The notes under the pieces: generated by a model | The model's database searches: none | The model's input: only the letters and a program-made list of their open reading frames with translations | What the model was told of the DNA's origin: nothing | Program-made: the position numbers and the translations under genes | Origin: Actinostola sp. cb2023 | Taxonomy: Eukaryota > Cnidaria > Anthozoa > Actiniaria > Actinostolidae | Assembly: GCA_033675265.1 (NCBI GenBank) | Contig: JAUJYZ010000929.1 | Coordinates: 248,001-312,000 of the forward strand | Length of the DNA: 64,000 nucleotides | Reading direction: 5' to 3' | Shown here: positions 41,276 to 50,200 of the stretch, piece after piece | How the letters are laid out: every line of letters begins with the position of its first letter | Position numbering within the stretch: the stretch's first letter is position 1

Positions 41276-44200
41276 TTAATAATAATAACACTTTATTTAA
41301 TGAGGATGTAACAGATAAAGCTATGCTTTTTTCCAATCTGGTCCTCCTAGGTAAAATTGGTAATCAAACGGTAACTCGTGAAATTTGGGATAAATTTCAC
41401 TGGTGTTTGTCGAAACCCCAGTCGATTATCAAAATAATAACACACCTACAAAAAATACTCGTTTCTGATTGGCTGATTGACTGTGGATTTTTTCTTAATA
41501 CCGTGCAATTAATTAATTGCACGGTATTAAGAAAATTGCACATGTGCTATTTTATTATTTGTGGTTGTGATTGTGCTACGAGCGAGTTGCTACTATAAAG
41601 AAACTCATATTTTTTGTAGGTGTGTTATTAATAGGAAATACCACTTAGTTCTCGAAGTATAGGAAATACCACAGTTCGAGAAGAATTAATGAAAAATACC
41701 ACTTGTATTTGATGAAATTTTTTCATTAATTCTTCTCGAACTGTGGTATTTCCTATACTAATTTCACTCGTTACCATTTGATTATACGTATACTAATAAT
41801 AATTTATTAATTTCTGTAGATCATTTTTCATTTTCGATCATAATTGCAAAAATAGGCACACTATGTAGGGAAAGTTTTATGTCACGGAGGGAAGGGTGTT
41901 TCTTCAAGGTAAAAATCACTCTAAAATATACCAAACTAGATGCTCTTCTAGCGTGAAGTCGGACTTCTAAATGAAATGTAGCCTATTTGAACTAAATATA
42001 GATATCTTAGTGTGATTATTGCGTGACTCGGTAGAACATGCTTTCCTTGCAATTTCAGTACTGCGATTTCACAAACTCAGCGAATCATGAATAACAACGA
42101 CATAGTTTATTTGGTACCATAAATATATATCCATACAAATAGCATATATATAAACTAGACATCGCAGAGTGATTAAAGTGTAAATATGGGTTTACCTCGG
42201 CTCGGTCTCTGAAAACCAACTCACTTCGTTTGAAGTTCGAAAGATCTCTAAACCCTTTGCAGTACTGGTAGTACTGGATTGATATTAAAATCCATATCTC
42301 TATGAATTATTGTGGTTATTTTGAAAACAAGACGACACATAACCTTCCTAGCTCCAACAAGGTTTGTGAAGAAGTGAATTCTCGTGTTGATAAACCATGT
42401 TGTTAGAGCCTTCGGTGATTATCTTAGCCGCCGGCACAGGGCGCATGCGCTGTAGAACCCAGTTGGCGATTTGAGGTCAACGACCAAGAACGGAGTGCAT
42501 TTTTAGAGTCGGAGCTTCTAATAATACTCGCGTATTCAAGCCCGACGGAGCACGCTTTCTTCTCTGACGGTTTTGTTTGCTTTATCTGTGTTTATCCAGT
42601 AAGCTTTTAAATATTATTAATATTATCAAAAGATCTGTAGCTTTGCTATTTTTAATTAATTCTAAGTTTCATACCCTACCCCTACTAGTCGAGTATAGAA
42701 AGACCCCCCCCCCCCCCCCCCCCCCCCGTATTTCCGAACCTTAACGTAGCCTCGCATACAATAGAGTACCGAAGTGATGACGTCATAAAAATAAAATGTT
42801 CGCTTTATCAACTTAAGATCACTAATTTCGAAAGAACATCAATAAAGAAGCTTACATTCCAAATTTGAGAGCAATCCGTTAAATATCGGCTGAGATATGG
42901 CCAGTTGAATATATAATTTTCCACCACAAATCACTGTAATTTCGGCTTGGTTCGTAATGTTATGCTGTCAAATTTGGCATGTAAGCTTCTTTTTTAATGT
43001 TCTTTCAAAATCGAGGATCGAAAGTTGATAAAGCGAAGAATGAAAATTTCGTGACGTCACAATTCCACAGACGCCACATCGTTCGTTGTGCTATCGAATT
43101 GCGTGTTTGTACTTATGAACAAGTGAGGCTCTGGATTAGACAAACAATGACAATATTTATTTCGATCTGGTTAGCGTTAATAGGCTTGTATATTGTCAAG
43201 ATGGGTCCACTAGATCTAATGATTAAACAGTGACAACAAACGGCTTGGTAAGATAAAGAACGGAGCTGTGATTAATGATCAATCCATTGACAAAAGTGAA
43301 AATCTAACCACAGGTAGCCCAAGCTCACCATTTGAAGCTTTATATAGATATTATGCAATGTAAATTTATTAAAAATCGAAAATACGATAAATCGTTTTTT
43401 AAATGATTGTAGTTGTTCTTTTTGAGTTTATTTAACTTTGCGGAAAATCTGGTGTCGCTACGATTAAAACTAAGCGAGTTATAGCTGTAAAATTCAAACA
43501 GCTATAACTCGCTTAGTTTTAATCGTAGCGATACTAGATTTTCCGCAAAGTTAAATAAACTCACAAAGAACAACTACAATCATTTTAAAAACGATATATC
43601 GTATTTTCGATTTTTAATAAATTTACACTGCATAATCTCTATATAAAGCTTGAAATGGCGAGCTTGGGCTACCTGTGATCTAACAGCATCCATATATCAT
43701 ATACATTATTAAAGTAATAATAATAAAAATATAATACGCTATTATTTCTATTCACTCTCCAGAGTGCAAATAAGTTGTACGTCTTTGATATAGTTATAGT
43801 TATTGTTCCGATTTTTATTTATTAATTGAAACTAAACGTCAGTACTGCATATTCATATACACCTAATTTCAAAAACGTTGTCCAAATAGCCAAATACGAA
43901 TTCATTCAAAAAGACAAAAGAAACAGTTCAGCTTGAGTACACTTCTTTTGTCTTTTAATGAAATCCTATTTGGCTTTTTTGATTATTATTGGACAACGTT
44001 TTTGAAATTAGGTGTATATATAAATCCGTGGCACTTTCCGATATTTCGATTTTCTATATTTCTCTCAAATTCGAAATAGGTAAATACTATTCATTTGCTA
44101 TCCAAGTGAATGTCTAATCAATCGTACAATAAAGTAAAACATCAGAACAGATTCTTATTTTTCATGTTAAAACACAGTCTTTGTATTGTCTTATTGTCTA

Positions 44201-47200
44201 TTTGGTATTTACCATTTAATCTATTTTCTATTTTCTATTTTCTATTTTCTATTTTCTATTTTTCTACTTGTGTTTGTTTTGGGAGCCATTTTTAAACAGT
44301 TAGTTCCGTTGAGTTGAACCTCGTGCTTTACTATCAACATTATTATGGAAAACATCGACGAGGACTTTATCGTCTCCCTTATAAAGACCGGGAAAACACA
44401 CAAAGAGGTATCTTCTTTATTGAAATCAATGTTCCCGTCTATAAAAAGAGGATTTAGTGAGCATACAGTGCGAAAATACTGTTCGCTTCGAAACATACGA
44501 AGACCTACTACTACTGAAGTAGACAACCTCGTCAGTCAGTGTGTAGACGAAGTAAGTATTTGTAAAGTCTTTGCAGTCTTTTGCAATGTGTTGTTTTCTC
44601 ATAGTCTTGATATTGACAGCCCACACTTATGATTGCCAGGTGGGCCCGAGTTATGGAAGGAAGATGATGGCAGGCTATGTTTACAGCCAGTATGGAGTTA
44701 GAGTTGGCAGGCGAAAGTTACAAAGCTCCCTAAGTCGTGTTTCACCAGTTTATCATGAACAGCGACGAAATGACTTAGTACGACGTGCCAATCCAGTACC
44801 CTACTATGCTCCATATCATGGTCATAAACTTCATATCGACCAAAATGAAAAACTCAAGGACTTTGGTGTTACTCATGTCTGTTTTAGTGATGGTCACAGC
44901 AGTCAGATAGTCGGTGTGCTTACAATGCCTATCAAAAATCCGATAGTAATTTACGAAGGCTTGTTCAGGCAAGTTGAATACAGAGTCGTTTTCGTATGAG
45001 TGGGAGATTTACGGTACCGCGCCGTGTCGTATTGAAAGAGTTTGATTGACTGAGATGCATCTCGGTACGCTATTTGATTGGTTCAGAAAGGAAGTCACGG
45101 TACCGTATATGTTTCCCACTCATACGAAAACGACTCTATACACCGTAATGACGTTAGCGTGCTATATTAATGCCGTTTATTGTACGCTGATCATGAGTCG
45201 AACCTCTCCACAACGGCCACCTGACCATAGTTAGTATAACAACTGTCTTTAATATAATTGCACTTGAACTCAAATGGGTTACAACAGGGTGCAAATTAAT
45301 CGCACTGCTCGTAAAGAGGTTCAACTCTAGAGTATAGTAATTATATTTTTGTCATCACAACAGGCCTTTATTGCTTAGAGATGGTATATGGGACATGGTT
45401 CGAGCAGATCATGGAACAGAATGGTGTCTCGTACTTTTTATTCAAAATTACCTGGCACAGTTTCGTGGATACCAGCAGTGTGATCCTTACTACCAATCAA
45501 AATCCACTGATGTAAGTATCATTTAGTATTGTTTGCAACTTTAAGAAGGCCCCAGCATAGTGCGTCTTGAACAACAAACTATCACTCAGTTCGAAGAAGT
45601 TATTTCGTCTGGAACTGATAGTCTTCTTAATTTATAAAGAGGAAAGCAAAACCCTAAAACCGTATACAGTGAATTACCTCTGGACACCAGGCAAGGTCCC
45701 AAGGGTGTCCGCTTTGTAGAGGTTTCACTGCAGTGCCAGGCCTTTTGCTTGCTCTCGACAGGAGGTTCATCTTCAGATTATTCAAATAAAATATTCTCAC
45801 TAGACGTGTATAACAACAATCACAACGCATCCTAATCAGAAGAGCACAATATTCAGAAATTGTTTTACTGATTTTCAGAATCTTCCGGCCGAAAGAAAGT
45901 GGGTTGAAATTAATCAAAGAAATAATTACCCCATGAAAGATGCTCTCATCGATATGCAGAGGCGCTTAGTGATCAATATGGCCGATCCTCTGGTCAAGTA
46001 TGGGGTCTCGTTCATATCGATTTGTGTTTCAGAAGTAGGCGTAGCAAAAGTGGTTGCATCTTGGAATGAGCACCCAATCGAAGGTAATAACATTTCATTA
46101 TAAAACTGAGACATCTCGAGAAACTCGGAAAACGTTAACAGCATGCGTCGCAGCATCCGGCAGGGCGTGGCCAAGGCATGGGATTTCAGCACTGACACAA
46201 CGTACACATGTAGTCCATGTACTAGTACAGACAAACACCTAATTACATTAATTGAAAATATGAAATATCTGATAAATAGAAACATAAAAAAATATTTGCT
46301 TTTAGATGACACTCAAAGAATACCAAATACAAGGGCACAGTTGTCAAGACGTGTATCACTGGTAGATATCCAGACAGTCCCTACTACAGAAGAAGCTATC
46401 ATCCTGTATGAAGCTGCAGGCGGCCGTCTAACAAGAGAGAGTTTATTTGGGGCCGATCCGCTTCGCAATCATGCTCATCTAATTCAAGAAAGAGAAAGGC
46501 TTTTTGGGCAAACGAATCCTGATTTCCATTTCATTCAATCAAGGCTCGCCAATGGAGATTTAGTTTTCTTTGAAGCAGCTATTACTTCCTTCGTTGAAAT
46601 TACTAGAAGACTAGCCATGGAGATATGACAACTTTTATTTTCATTTATGCATTTAACTTGGCATACAGTATGGTGTACTATATATAACAGTGATTATAAT
46701 CATAACTCGAAATTAGATCATGTATTATTTCAGAGGGATATTAATCCGTTCATTTCATGGTAACATGACATTATTTGGAACTCAACTATCAATAACTGTT
46801 CAGTTCATCAACTAACTTTTAATATTTGGGCTATAGCAAACAAAGAAGCTAATAATGTCATTTGCACTATCTATAGCCAAACGCAACGTCATGATTGCAT
46901 GGGTCTATCATGCAGTTCTAGATGTTGTCGGGACCTAAATATCTAGAATATCGTTGTTGTTGTGGCTGCTGGCCACCAAAACTGTGGCTGTTTGTACACG
47001 GGGTTGGCCATGACTGGGTTTAACTGCAATATCAGTGAGGAGCTGTTGGATATTTCGTACCATTGGCACTTTAACATAATCATCTTCACAACGACACAGA
47101 GGGCATATGCTTCCAGCTTCGCGCCACTGTTCCACACATGGGATACAGCCAATAACATTTTCGCATCCTGCACATGCGGCCACAGGTAGTGTAGCGACAC

Positions 47201-50200
47201 TGAAACAAATATTACACTTGAACACTTTCTCTAGAAATCTGCAGACACTGGCTTCATCTTCAATGGCTATTTGGTTATTACTTTGATTACTGATGGCCAT
47301 GCCTGCTGCCTCCTGTACCTTTACCAAATCATTGCGCATCTTCTTTAATTCTGATATAATATCTGAGGATTGGTCTTCTGCTTTTCTTTCTTCTGCTTTC
47401 CTTTTTCCCAGTAAGGTATCAGAACAATGGCTTGGAATGGCAAATACTTTGCGGCAACCTTGCCAAAAGGAACCTGTTGAGTACAATCCAGAAAATCTCC
47501 TTTTATTATTAAACAGATAGTGTACGTATACATACATTTATTATTATTATTTTATACATTTATTGCATCAGTTAATAAAAAGTTGTTGAAATTATAGTGC
47601 TTAGTAAAACTAAATTCCAATTTAAATGCCATTGTATATAGGCTGATTTAGGGGGAAGGAGGGGACCATGGGCCCCCTATTCATCTGAGGTTTTTATAAA
47701 CACTTGATGGTTAATACTAATAAAAATGCTTCGTTTGTTCAAATGCTGTAACAACACCCTAAGTGATACCAAAAATGGTAATTTACACCCCTCAAAGAGA
47801 CGATGATTATCCCTGCCCTTTCACATGGGGAGCCCCTCCCATGTAAAAGGGGCGGGGATGAGCGATAGTATAGGGTTAGCTTAGCGTTACTGCAACACCA
47901 ATAAAATTACAAAAACCGGGACTTATGGAATTAATCTAACAAGTGACAGATTAAAGAATGAAATAAACATAATTAGGCGACCTTCAACTGGCTGTATTAA
48001 ATCTACATGTACACGCCATTCTTGATGTGCCGGTTTCAATAAAGAATTGCAATCATTGTTGTTCCCTATTCGAAATCTTGGAAAACTCAAAACACTCTCA
48101 AAACACGCTCATATGCATGGAGTTATAGTGCGATTTGAACCTAAGTTGTTTTTTCTTTCTCGTGGGAAAAATGTCCTAGCAACTAATTAGTCGCGCCACT
48201 CAACCTGAATCTGTATTCAGGAACATTTTAGATTACACTATTATCACCGATAAGTTTTATTTATAAATCAGGCAATATGAAATCATGCAGTACCAGATCT
48301 AGAAAGTTTTCAAAATTCTAAAACCGTAATTATTATTCATGGCAGCACTATAGCTAATTGATAACGCATCATTGTCAATTTCAATAAAAAGTCGGTCGGG
48401 TCCCGTGTTTCATTCAAAAGTATAAAATAATTATATAACTTAATACACACACAGACATTTATTAAAGATGTACCAGGAATGTACTAACCTTTCGTGGCAT
48501 TTGATGTCCTAATTTGTAAATACTTATTATCGAGTAGAATTACGGGAGTCCCAACCTCATTTTCGACCTGTTTTGCTACTTGTTCCACGGTAGCGGTTTC
48601 TTCACACAAATTCAAATATACTTGAAATATAGGTGAAGGCTTTCCATCAACAACTTCGCAAAAAATAACTGTTTTCCTCCATGTTCTGGCGGGACTGCTG
48701 CCAGGGCTGGAGGAAGCACTACCATGATGTTGCAATTGGGTTTTCGCAAACATAAATGCTGGACGTGTCAAGCCTTGCTGTCGCGCCATATTTCCACTTA
48801 CACCGGGAGGTGGATTTGGATTCAGTCAGTCGTCCCGTCCCGCACTGACTGTTGGTTGTAAATAGCTGCATGATGGTTCAGCGGCGATGTCTTGTTGCTG
48901 TGGATCACCAAAAACTTCGTAGGTAATAAACGACAACACATCATCAGGGTTGAACTCCCCGGTTCTTGGGTCAGGCATCAACACAGACTCATCGCCGATC
49001 AAATAAATAGAATCTGCATTAAGCTTGAAAACTCTTGAAAGGACCTGTGAAGTGTTTTCATTAAGTCGGACTTTAAGACTAGTGTCCCCTCTTTTCACGT
49101 TTACGAAAAGTGCGTTCATCTTGCAGAACTGAGGAGTCGGTACAATGCAACTGGCGCGAACTTTACATTACAATGATACCCCGCCTTGTGGCCACCCCGT
49201 TAATACGGCCAACTCGATATTACGGGCATTTAGGGTGCGTGCGATTGTTTTGGACTAATCCGGATTAACAATAGCCGGAATATCACGAGTGAGCGTCACG
49301 TTTGAGAGCTATTCCTATTTGGGAAATTCGTAATCTGGCTATTCAGGAATATTCCAGAGTATGTTCTTATTCCGAAATATAAGCCAAACGAACGAGTCAT
49401 ATAGTCGCAAAGCTGGGCGTATTCGCATGATTCCACAGTATAGAGAAGGTTCCTGGGACCTAGCAGTTTTAGAAAACGAAAAATAGAAATTGTAAAATAG
49501 AAAATAGAAAAAATGATAATTCCAAATAGACAATAAGACAATACAAAGACTGTGTTTTAACATGAAAAATAAGAATCTGTTCTGATGTTTTACTTTATTG
49601 TACGATTGATTAGACATTCACTTGGATAGCAAATGAATAGTATTTACCTATTTCGAATTTGAAAGAAATATAGAAAATCGAAATATCGGAAAGTGCCACG
49701 GATTTATATATTATATTATTATAGCATAGCGCTTCACACTTCTCAGGTTAGAAATATTGAGTTTCGCTTGGGAGGTTTTGTGTGTTGTCAGATACGTAAT
49801 GAGTGAAACATTCCCTGTGAATTGAGTATCATTATCACGGTAATAAACCAAGGAATACATAGTTAAATAGGCTTCTAAGTTTACACTTTTACAAATAGGC
49901 TTCTACATTTTTTTCTACAATTTATAGCTTAACGTTTGTGCACGCAATTAACTACATTTCTACTATCTGTATTTAAAAACATCAAAACACACAACAGAGT
50001 GGCTTTTGGCAGTTATTTTCTAAATACAATTACTGTTCGTTTTGGATTCTGGAAATATATGTGGTTTATTAGAAGGTACATCGCAGTACGAAGTGCCATT
50101 CGTAGAGTCACGCGATAAGCAGTAAACTATATAAAGTTTTACAAATGAACAAACGTCTACAAAACCTACCTGAAGCTGGACAAACTAGCGCCAAGACAAA

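Follow-up and report, generated by a model that had tools for sequence, protein, structure and literature searches.

Structure of the element and its two genes

Within a 64-kb stretch of DNA from Actinostola sp. cb2023 (the window), we analyzed a complete DNA transposon at positions 44023-49704 that carries two convergent genes, one for a transposase and one for a predicted RING-finger protein (Table 1). The hexamer TATATA lies directly outside both ends and, read as the target site duplication, fixes these limits; an earlier sequence-only reading, which gave the span 44022..49705, placed each boundary one base too far out. It was right that the terminal inverted repeats (TIRs) are of equal length, but the arms measure 187 bp each, not 184 bp, with 2 mismatches (at 44064 and 44206).

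The transposase gene, on the plus strand, has five exons that splice to an unbroken frame of 1212 nt (403 codons) in the window copy, with introns 1-4 of the types GT-AG, GC-AG, GT-AG and GT-AG, respectively. Splice sets with plain GT donors left 28 open combinations, which we passed over for the GC donor of exon 2 because it gives the 403-amino-acid frame and keeps Arg179, a residue present in 12/13 aligned homologues (as part of FRP or YRP in 6/13). The product matches the Pfam integrase core PF24764 above the family cut-off (E 1.6e-9), and Asp136, Asp194 and Glu233 are invariant across 14 aligned transposases, indicating an rve-type DDE core and bearing out the five-exon, intact transposase described from sequence. 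On reading the protein, residues 1-135 contain two cysteines, without an HHCC pattern. Named relatives occur in Exaiptasia, Desmophyllum, Oculina, Paramuricea, Ptychodera, two sponges and several fish; none of the homologues found carries the label IS3EU, and no relative of the transposase alignment was found in viral contigs. Intron 2 contains an inverted repeat (27 nt, 96%; 44979-45140) resembling a miniature inverted-repeat transposable element (MITE), and matches to it recur in other copies.

The second gene lies on the minus strand as a separate unit of two exons with its own intron, outside the transposase polypeptide. Fold comparison moderately supports a ubiquitin-like N-terminus, where it effectively covers residues up to 75, and an eight-cysteine RING. 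The Foldseek list for the RING region is headed by RING ubiquitin ligases (E3s) at E 0.016-0.05, with no match at E≤0.001; such structure lists do not show the absence of other folds. The eight cysteines stand in cross-brace order, but the ligand spacing is atypical and the Pfam RING score is below the cut-off. Ile297, Trp325, Pro333 and Arg336 are conserved in the window family (F1) and in all four further families (F2-F5) described below; we take these positions to be the ones that touch the ubiquitin-conjugating enzyme (E2) in RING E3s. The sequence-only reading is upheld on the convergent orientation and, at this moderate strength, on the two domains, but it overlooked that codon 98 of exon 1 is an in-frame stop (TGA), which rules out a working RING gene in the window copy. 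This stop is private among seven two-ended copies; the window copy could therefore supply transposase but, as read, not the full RING protein.

Table 1. Coordinates of the element in the window, and loci of the related families on other contigs (C numbers)
Feature	Position	Strand	Remark
Left target site duplication TATATA	44017..44022	.	6 bp
Left TIR, starts AATCCGTG	44023..44209	+	187 bp, 2 mismatches against right arm
Transposase exon 1	44345..44551	+	
Transposase exon 2	44640..44968	+	first catalytic Asp (D136) at 44838-44840; GC donor follows
Transposase exon 3	45364..45511	+	second Asp (D194) at 45407-45409
Transposase exon 4	45879..46083	+	Glu (E233) at 45891-45893
Transposase exon 5	46306..46628	+	includes stop
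RING gene exon 2	46935..47473	-	FW..RK motif, coiled-coil helix, RING, C-terminal tail (predicted)
Eight-cysteine RING, residues 295-335	47094..47216	-	C295, 298, 309, 312, 318, 321, 332, 335
Long helix, predicted (putative coiled coil), residues 223-271	47286..47432	-	helix 36-84 of exon-2 open reading frame; block-average predicted local distance difference test (pLDDT) 51-80
RING gene exon 1	48489..49119	-	ubiquitin-like fold, linker, second beta-beta-alpha unit (predicted); broken in window copy
In-frame TGA, window copy only	48826..48828	-	from net 6-bp insertion, absent in six other two-ended copies
Right TIR, ends CACGGATT	49518..49704	-	
Right target site duplication TATATA	49705..49710	.	
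Family F2	C1137, C1054, C1088		
Family F3	C639, C1550		
Family F4	C849:284-289k, C1570:121.5-127k		
Family F5	C849:320-325k, C718, C1310, C1570:116-121k		
F5 copies between both ends	C849:320730-325348; C1310:192220-198230; C1570:116457-121511		

Copies of the window family

To find further copies, we used the left repeat to query the genome of origin (424 Mb, 1594 contigs) and obtained seven two-ended F1 copies, the window copy included, besides one-ended pieces and weakly related sequences. Each of the seven encloses both genes, which answers in the affirmative whether full copies repeatedly carry the RING gene. Exact 6-bp target duplications flank six of the seven copies and all differ in sequence (TATATA, AAAATA, CTCTTG, TCTAAA, CCCTAA and CAGAAA); the flanks of the copy on C1213 are mismatched (TTTCAC/CTTCAT).

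The transposase frame is open in the window copy and on C996, C1213, C416 and C849, and broken on C1234 and C1067b, as it also is on C307, where one end was found. For the RING gene, the frame is open on C1213 and C1067b, a stop or frame change interrupts it in the window copy and on C996, C416 and C1234, and the C-terminus is changed on C849. Thus the copy on C1213 retains both genes intact. Pieces lacking a full pair include C91, with ~750 bp from the RING side, and C426, where no more than 81 bp of repeat is left. RING exon 1 of F1 was also found, 100% identical and unbroken, on a 3466-bp public contig (P0041/P0043; sources jgi and ena).

Recurrence of the RING gene beside related transposases

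Genome searches returned 59 matching stretches with the RING protein as query, 42 with its relative P0046 and 130 with the transposase; joined, these form 47 RING clusters and at least 62 transposase clusters, the latter a lower bound since 103 of 545 candidates were scored. The RING relatives in this genome are at 24-38% amino acid identity. A related transposase lies within 5 kb of 38 of the 47 RING clusters, in 30 cases convergently, compared with a chance expectation of ~0.08 clusters (0.16% of the genome is that near a listed transposase). Without F1 the figure is 30/37; over all 47 clusters it is 41 when the distance is extended to 12 kb. Of the six RING clusters left without a transposase, direct comparison reveals a transposase relative for the one on C639 (L045), and the one on C91 is the truncated F1 copy. 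Some contigs resemble second haplotypes (C1054 and C502 are 99.7% identical over the compared stretches), and the clusters are not all independent. Head-to-head pairs of RING and transposase relatives occur at C309, C411, C430:118-122k, C680, C755 and C838, and gene order thus differs in some families.

Direct comparison of loci revealed four further families with the transposase-RING pair, F2 to F5. In F5, 472-bp inverted repeats flank both genes in three copies, and the copy on C849 has the exact 6-bp duplication TTACAC on both sides. Termini of the form AATC[AC]GTG are found in F1-F5, read at both ends in F1 and F5 and on one side in F2, F3 and F4. The RING frames are open in L041, L045, L046, L047, L049 and L050 over the stretches compared, with an exon 1 frame change in L040 and L042, and the families' RING genes apparently share an exon break that follows the TKG motif. 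In the F2-F5 proteins (exon 2 of L041, L046, L047 and L049) we observed an acidic, Asp-rich tail that is absent in F1, and an LLRP.. end in F2, F4 and F5.

Elements of this lineage, beyond F1 alone, regularly include the RING gene. With RING relatives beside transposases and a second TIR-bounded family carrying the pair, the earlier supposition that the gene belongs to the element and is not trapped host DNA is supported; this genome gave no sign of a host gene, and recurrence next to transposases leads us to reject an origin of the gene as trapped host sequence. On the other side, 19 of the 62 transposase clusters have no RING relative within 12 kb among the matches listed, possibly through absence or divergence; one of these is C1448, where no RING match accompanies the F5 end and transposase.

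Selection on the two genes

To evaluate constraint, we compared the families pairwise. The ratio of nonsynonymous to synonymous substitution rates (dN/dS) for RING exon 2 is 0.13 (F2-F3), 0.12 (F4-F5) and 0.30 (F1-F2), while three more comparisons are saturated at synonymous sites and give no value; for the transposase exons it is 0.07-0.32. These between-family values are rough, and where the ratio is computable the RING gene looks constrained. Recent copies present a mixed picture, mostly of decay: nonsynonymous and synonymous changes in the F1 RING gene, too few for dN/dS and counted without C307, number 7:1 (C1067b), 7.5:2.5 (C1234) and 1:5 (C849), and within F2 and F4 the ratio of nonsynonymous to synonymous differences (pN/pS) ranges from 0.30 to 2.66 on few changes.

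Probable exchange of the transposase between families

Between F5 and F2, the DNA identity of the transposase genes is 94% in exons 1-2 and 83-84% in the 3′ part; past the end of the gene the resemblance is lost. The RING proteins are paired differently: exon 2 identity is 37-38% for F2-F5, 62% for F4-F5 and 64-66% for F2-F3 (L051, which lacks the FW..RK start, appears among the RING pairs but was excluded from the conclusions). The repeats are 70% identical over ~356 bp in F4-F5 and 71% over ~257 bp in F2-F3 (on opposite sides of the two elements), and between F2 and F5 the similarity is confined to 26 bp at the outer end and 81 bp (77%) right before the transposase. Repeat type thus tracks RING type (F2 with F3, F4 with F5) and not the transposase. 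A shared transposase beside unlike RING proteins and repeats most likely reflects, as judged from sequence, an exchange of the transposase gene between the F2 and F5 lineages while the RING gene and the ends stayed joined. This linkage may mean that the RING protein functions with the ends, or it may reflect the direction of later repeat homogenization.

Relatives in other animals

RING relatives with 39-50% identity (P0001, P0053, P0057, P0058 and P0061) are present on public contigs. In the Alosa gene model P0026, a part resembling the middle of the RING gene (hhalign E 2e-5, probability 77%) is joined to an IS3EU-like transposase, which hints that the partnership extends to fish, although a fusion in the gene model is possible. 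Upstream of its transposase, P0026 also has a weak SWIM finger, and P0007 from the hemichordate Ptychodera has a BTB domain upstream of an IS3EU-like transposase; each may be a fusion or a model error.

Relation to known elements

It is instructive to compare this element with known systems. Like IS3EU elements, it has an rve-type DDE transposase related to bacterial IS3/IS481, no HHCC before the core, and 6-bp duplications, which are the usual length in IS3EU (PMC10045372). In contrast, complete IS3EU families are said always to have TA..TA ends, and GingerRoot occasionally TG..CA (PMC10045372), while the present ends are AATC[AC]GTG and the element carries a RING gene; 'ring' and 'ubiquitin' have 0 occurrences in the main text of that paper. 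The name IS3EU-like, proposed from sequence, is thus apt for the core, the duplications and the missing HHCC but does not extend to the termini, and is safer than IS3EU.

Accessory genes have precedents. Fungal IS3EU elements carry a TET/JBP gene between the transposase and an alpha-kinase gene that is opposite to the transposase, and TET/JBP genes move between transposon lineages (PMC12730594); the accessory proteins there are a kinase and a dioxygenase, unlike the ubiquitin-like RING protein here. The fungal Styx is a proposed descendant of an IS3EU element with two proteins (PMC10853768). Chapaev and the RAG1 lineage are transposase systems with a RING, that of RAG1 being a ubiquitin ligase, and in 2015 other known transposable elements were said not to encode one (PMC4411706); there the RING is within the transposase polypeptide, unlike the present RING, which has a gene of its own in a different superfamily. 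Ginger1 elements with OTU or Ulp1 domains likewise combine an integrase-like transposon with ubiquitin/SUMO-pathway functions, but as proteases that remove these modifiers and are fused to the transposase (PMC2836005), unlike the likely ligase with its own gene. Among the titles and abstract openings listed, we found no paper that describes a RING gene for IS3EU or comparable elements; Repbase may contain such a description.

Possible function of the RING protein

Taken together, these observations suggest, with a probability of about 0.72, that the element is an IS3EU-like DNA transposon of the cut-and-paste kind, active in recent times and equipped with two genes, of which the second likely encodes a RING E3 ubiquitin ligase. 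The copies and duplications are observed; by analogy with its family, the DDE transposase would act on the AATCCGTG ends and insert with 6-bp duplications. In the predicted architecture of the RING protein, the ubiquitin-like domain and the second beta-beta-alpha unit would bind partners, the coiled coil would self-associate and the RING would recruit a host E2. Such a ligase probably helps the element to transpose or survive, through ubiquitination either of a host factor, for example a silencing or chromatin protein, or of the complex that transposase and DNA form once cutting is done. Since very different RING proteins accompany closely related transposases, we favor a host or end-linked target, at somewhat short of even odds, over direct control of the transposase, which we regard as possible. 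In a broader and tentative form of this proposal, an animal transposon lineage has had a RING E3 as standing second gene since before the families split, with the ligase linked to the ends, the transposase exchangeable, and, as substrates, either the end complex or host proteins of silencing or chromatin.

The principal competing explanation is that the RING protein is a direct partner that marks the transposase or the strand-transfer complex with ubiquitin and thereby restrains transposition, disassembles it or sets its timing, as the RAG1 RING may do. This explanation, perhaps one chance in three, is consistent with the enclosure of both genes by the same ends in seven F1 and three F5 two-ended copies, with the ligase activity of the RAG1 RING (PMC4411706) and with the F2/F5 exchange, where RING gene and TIR type remain together, as expected of a partner that binds DNA ends. 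The same exchange makes a tight one-to-one fit unlikely, since such similar transposases work beside RING proteins so different. The atypical ligand spacing, the sub-threshold Pfam score and the joint movement of RING and TIR types apart from the transposase would also suit a domain that binds zinc without ligase activity and serves as an adaptor for proteins or DNA, for example to recognize the TIRs. We consider this unlikely, because RING E3s head the structure list and the presumed E2-contact positions are kept in five families.

DNA transposons can capture host genes, and a captured gene riding as passive cargo of one family could explain why the RING is broken or altered in the window copy and in 4/6 other two-ended copies, and why 6/47 RING clusters have no transposase within 12 kb. 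We consider this highly improbable: at least five divergent families have the pair, comparisons between them suggest constraint on exon 2, their RING genes apparently share the exon break after TKG, and two of those six clusters are accounted for by C639 and C91.

Known transposon cargoes include enzymes presumed to erase silencing marks of the host (fungal TET/JBP) and ubiquitin/SUMO removers (Ginger1). If the proposed ligase is real, a separately encoded enzyme kept across families would be a case of a transposon bringing the writing side of the ubiquitin system, and would make directly testable which protein a DNA transposon needs ubiquitinated: an intact two-gene copy exists, and the natural exchange of transposase against RING type offers a built-in comparison.

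Neighboring repeats

A MITE-like unit of 165 bp (43855-44019) with 31-bp perfect inverted repeats overlaps the left target duplication of the window element. At C849:284k-331k there is a nested cluster in which an F1 copy lies 15 bp from the right end of F5, beside an F4-like repeat, and at C1570:116k-127k an F5 element stops ~50 bp from F4 transposase sequence. Short paired inverted repeats of F5/F4 type, probably non-autonomous, are present at C1314:224032-225010, C1228:59783-61955, C1184:772690-774163 and C77:29437-31137.

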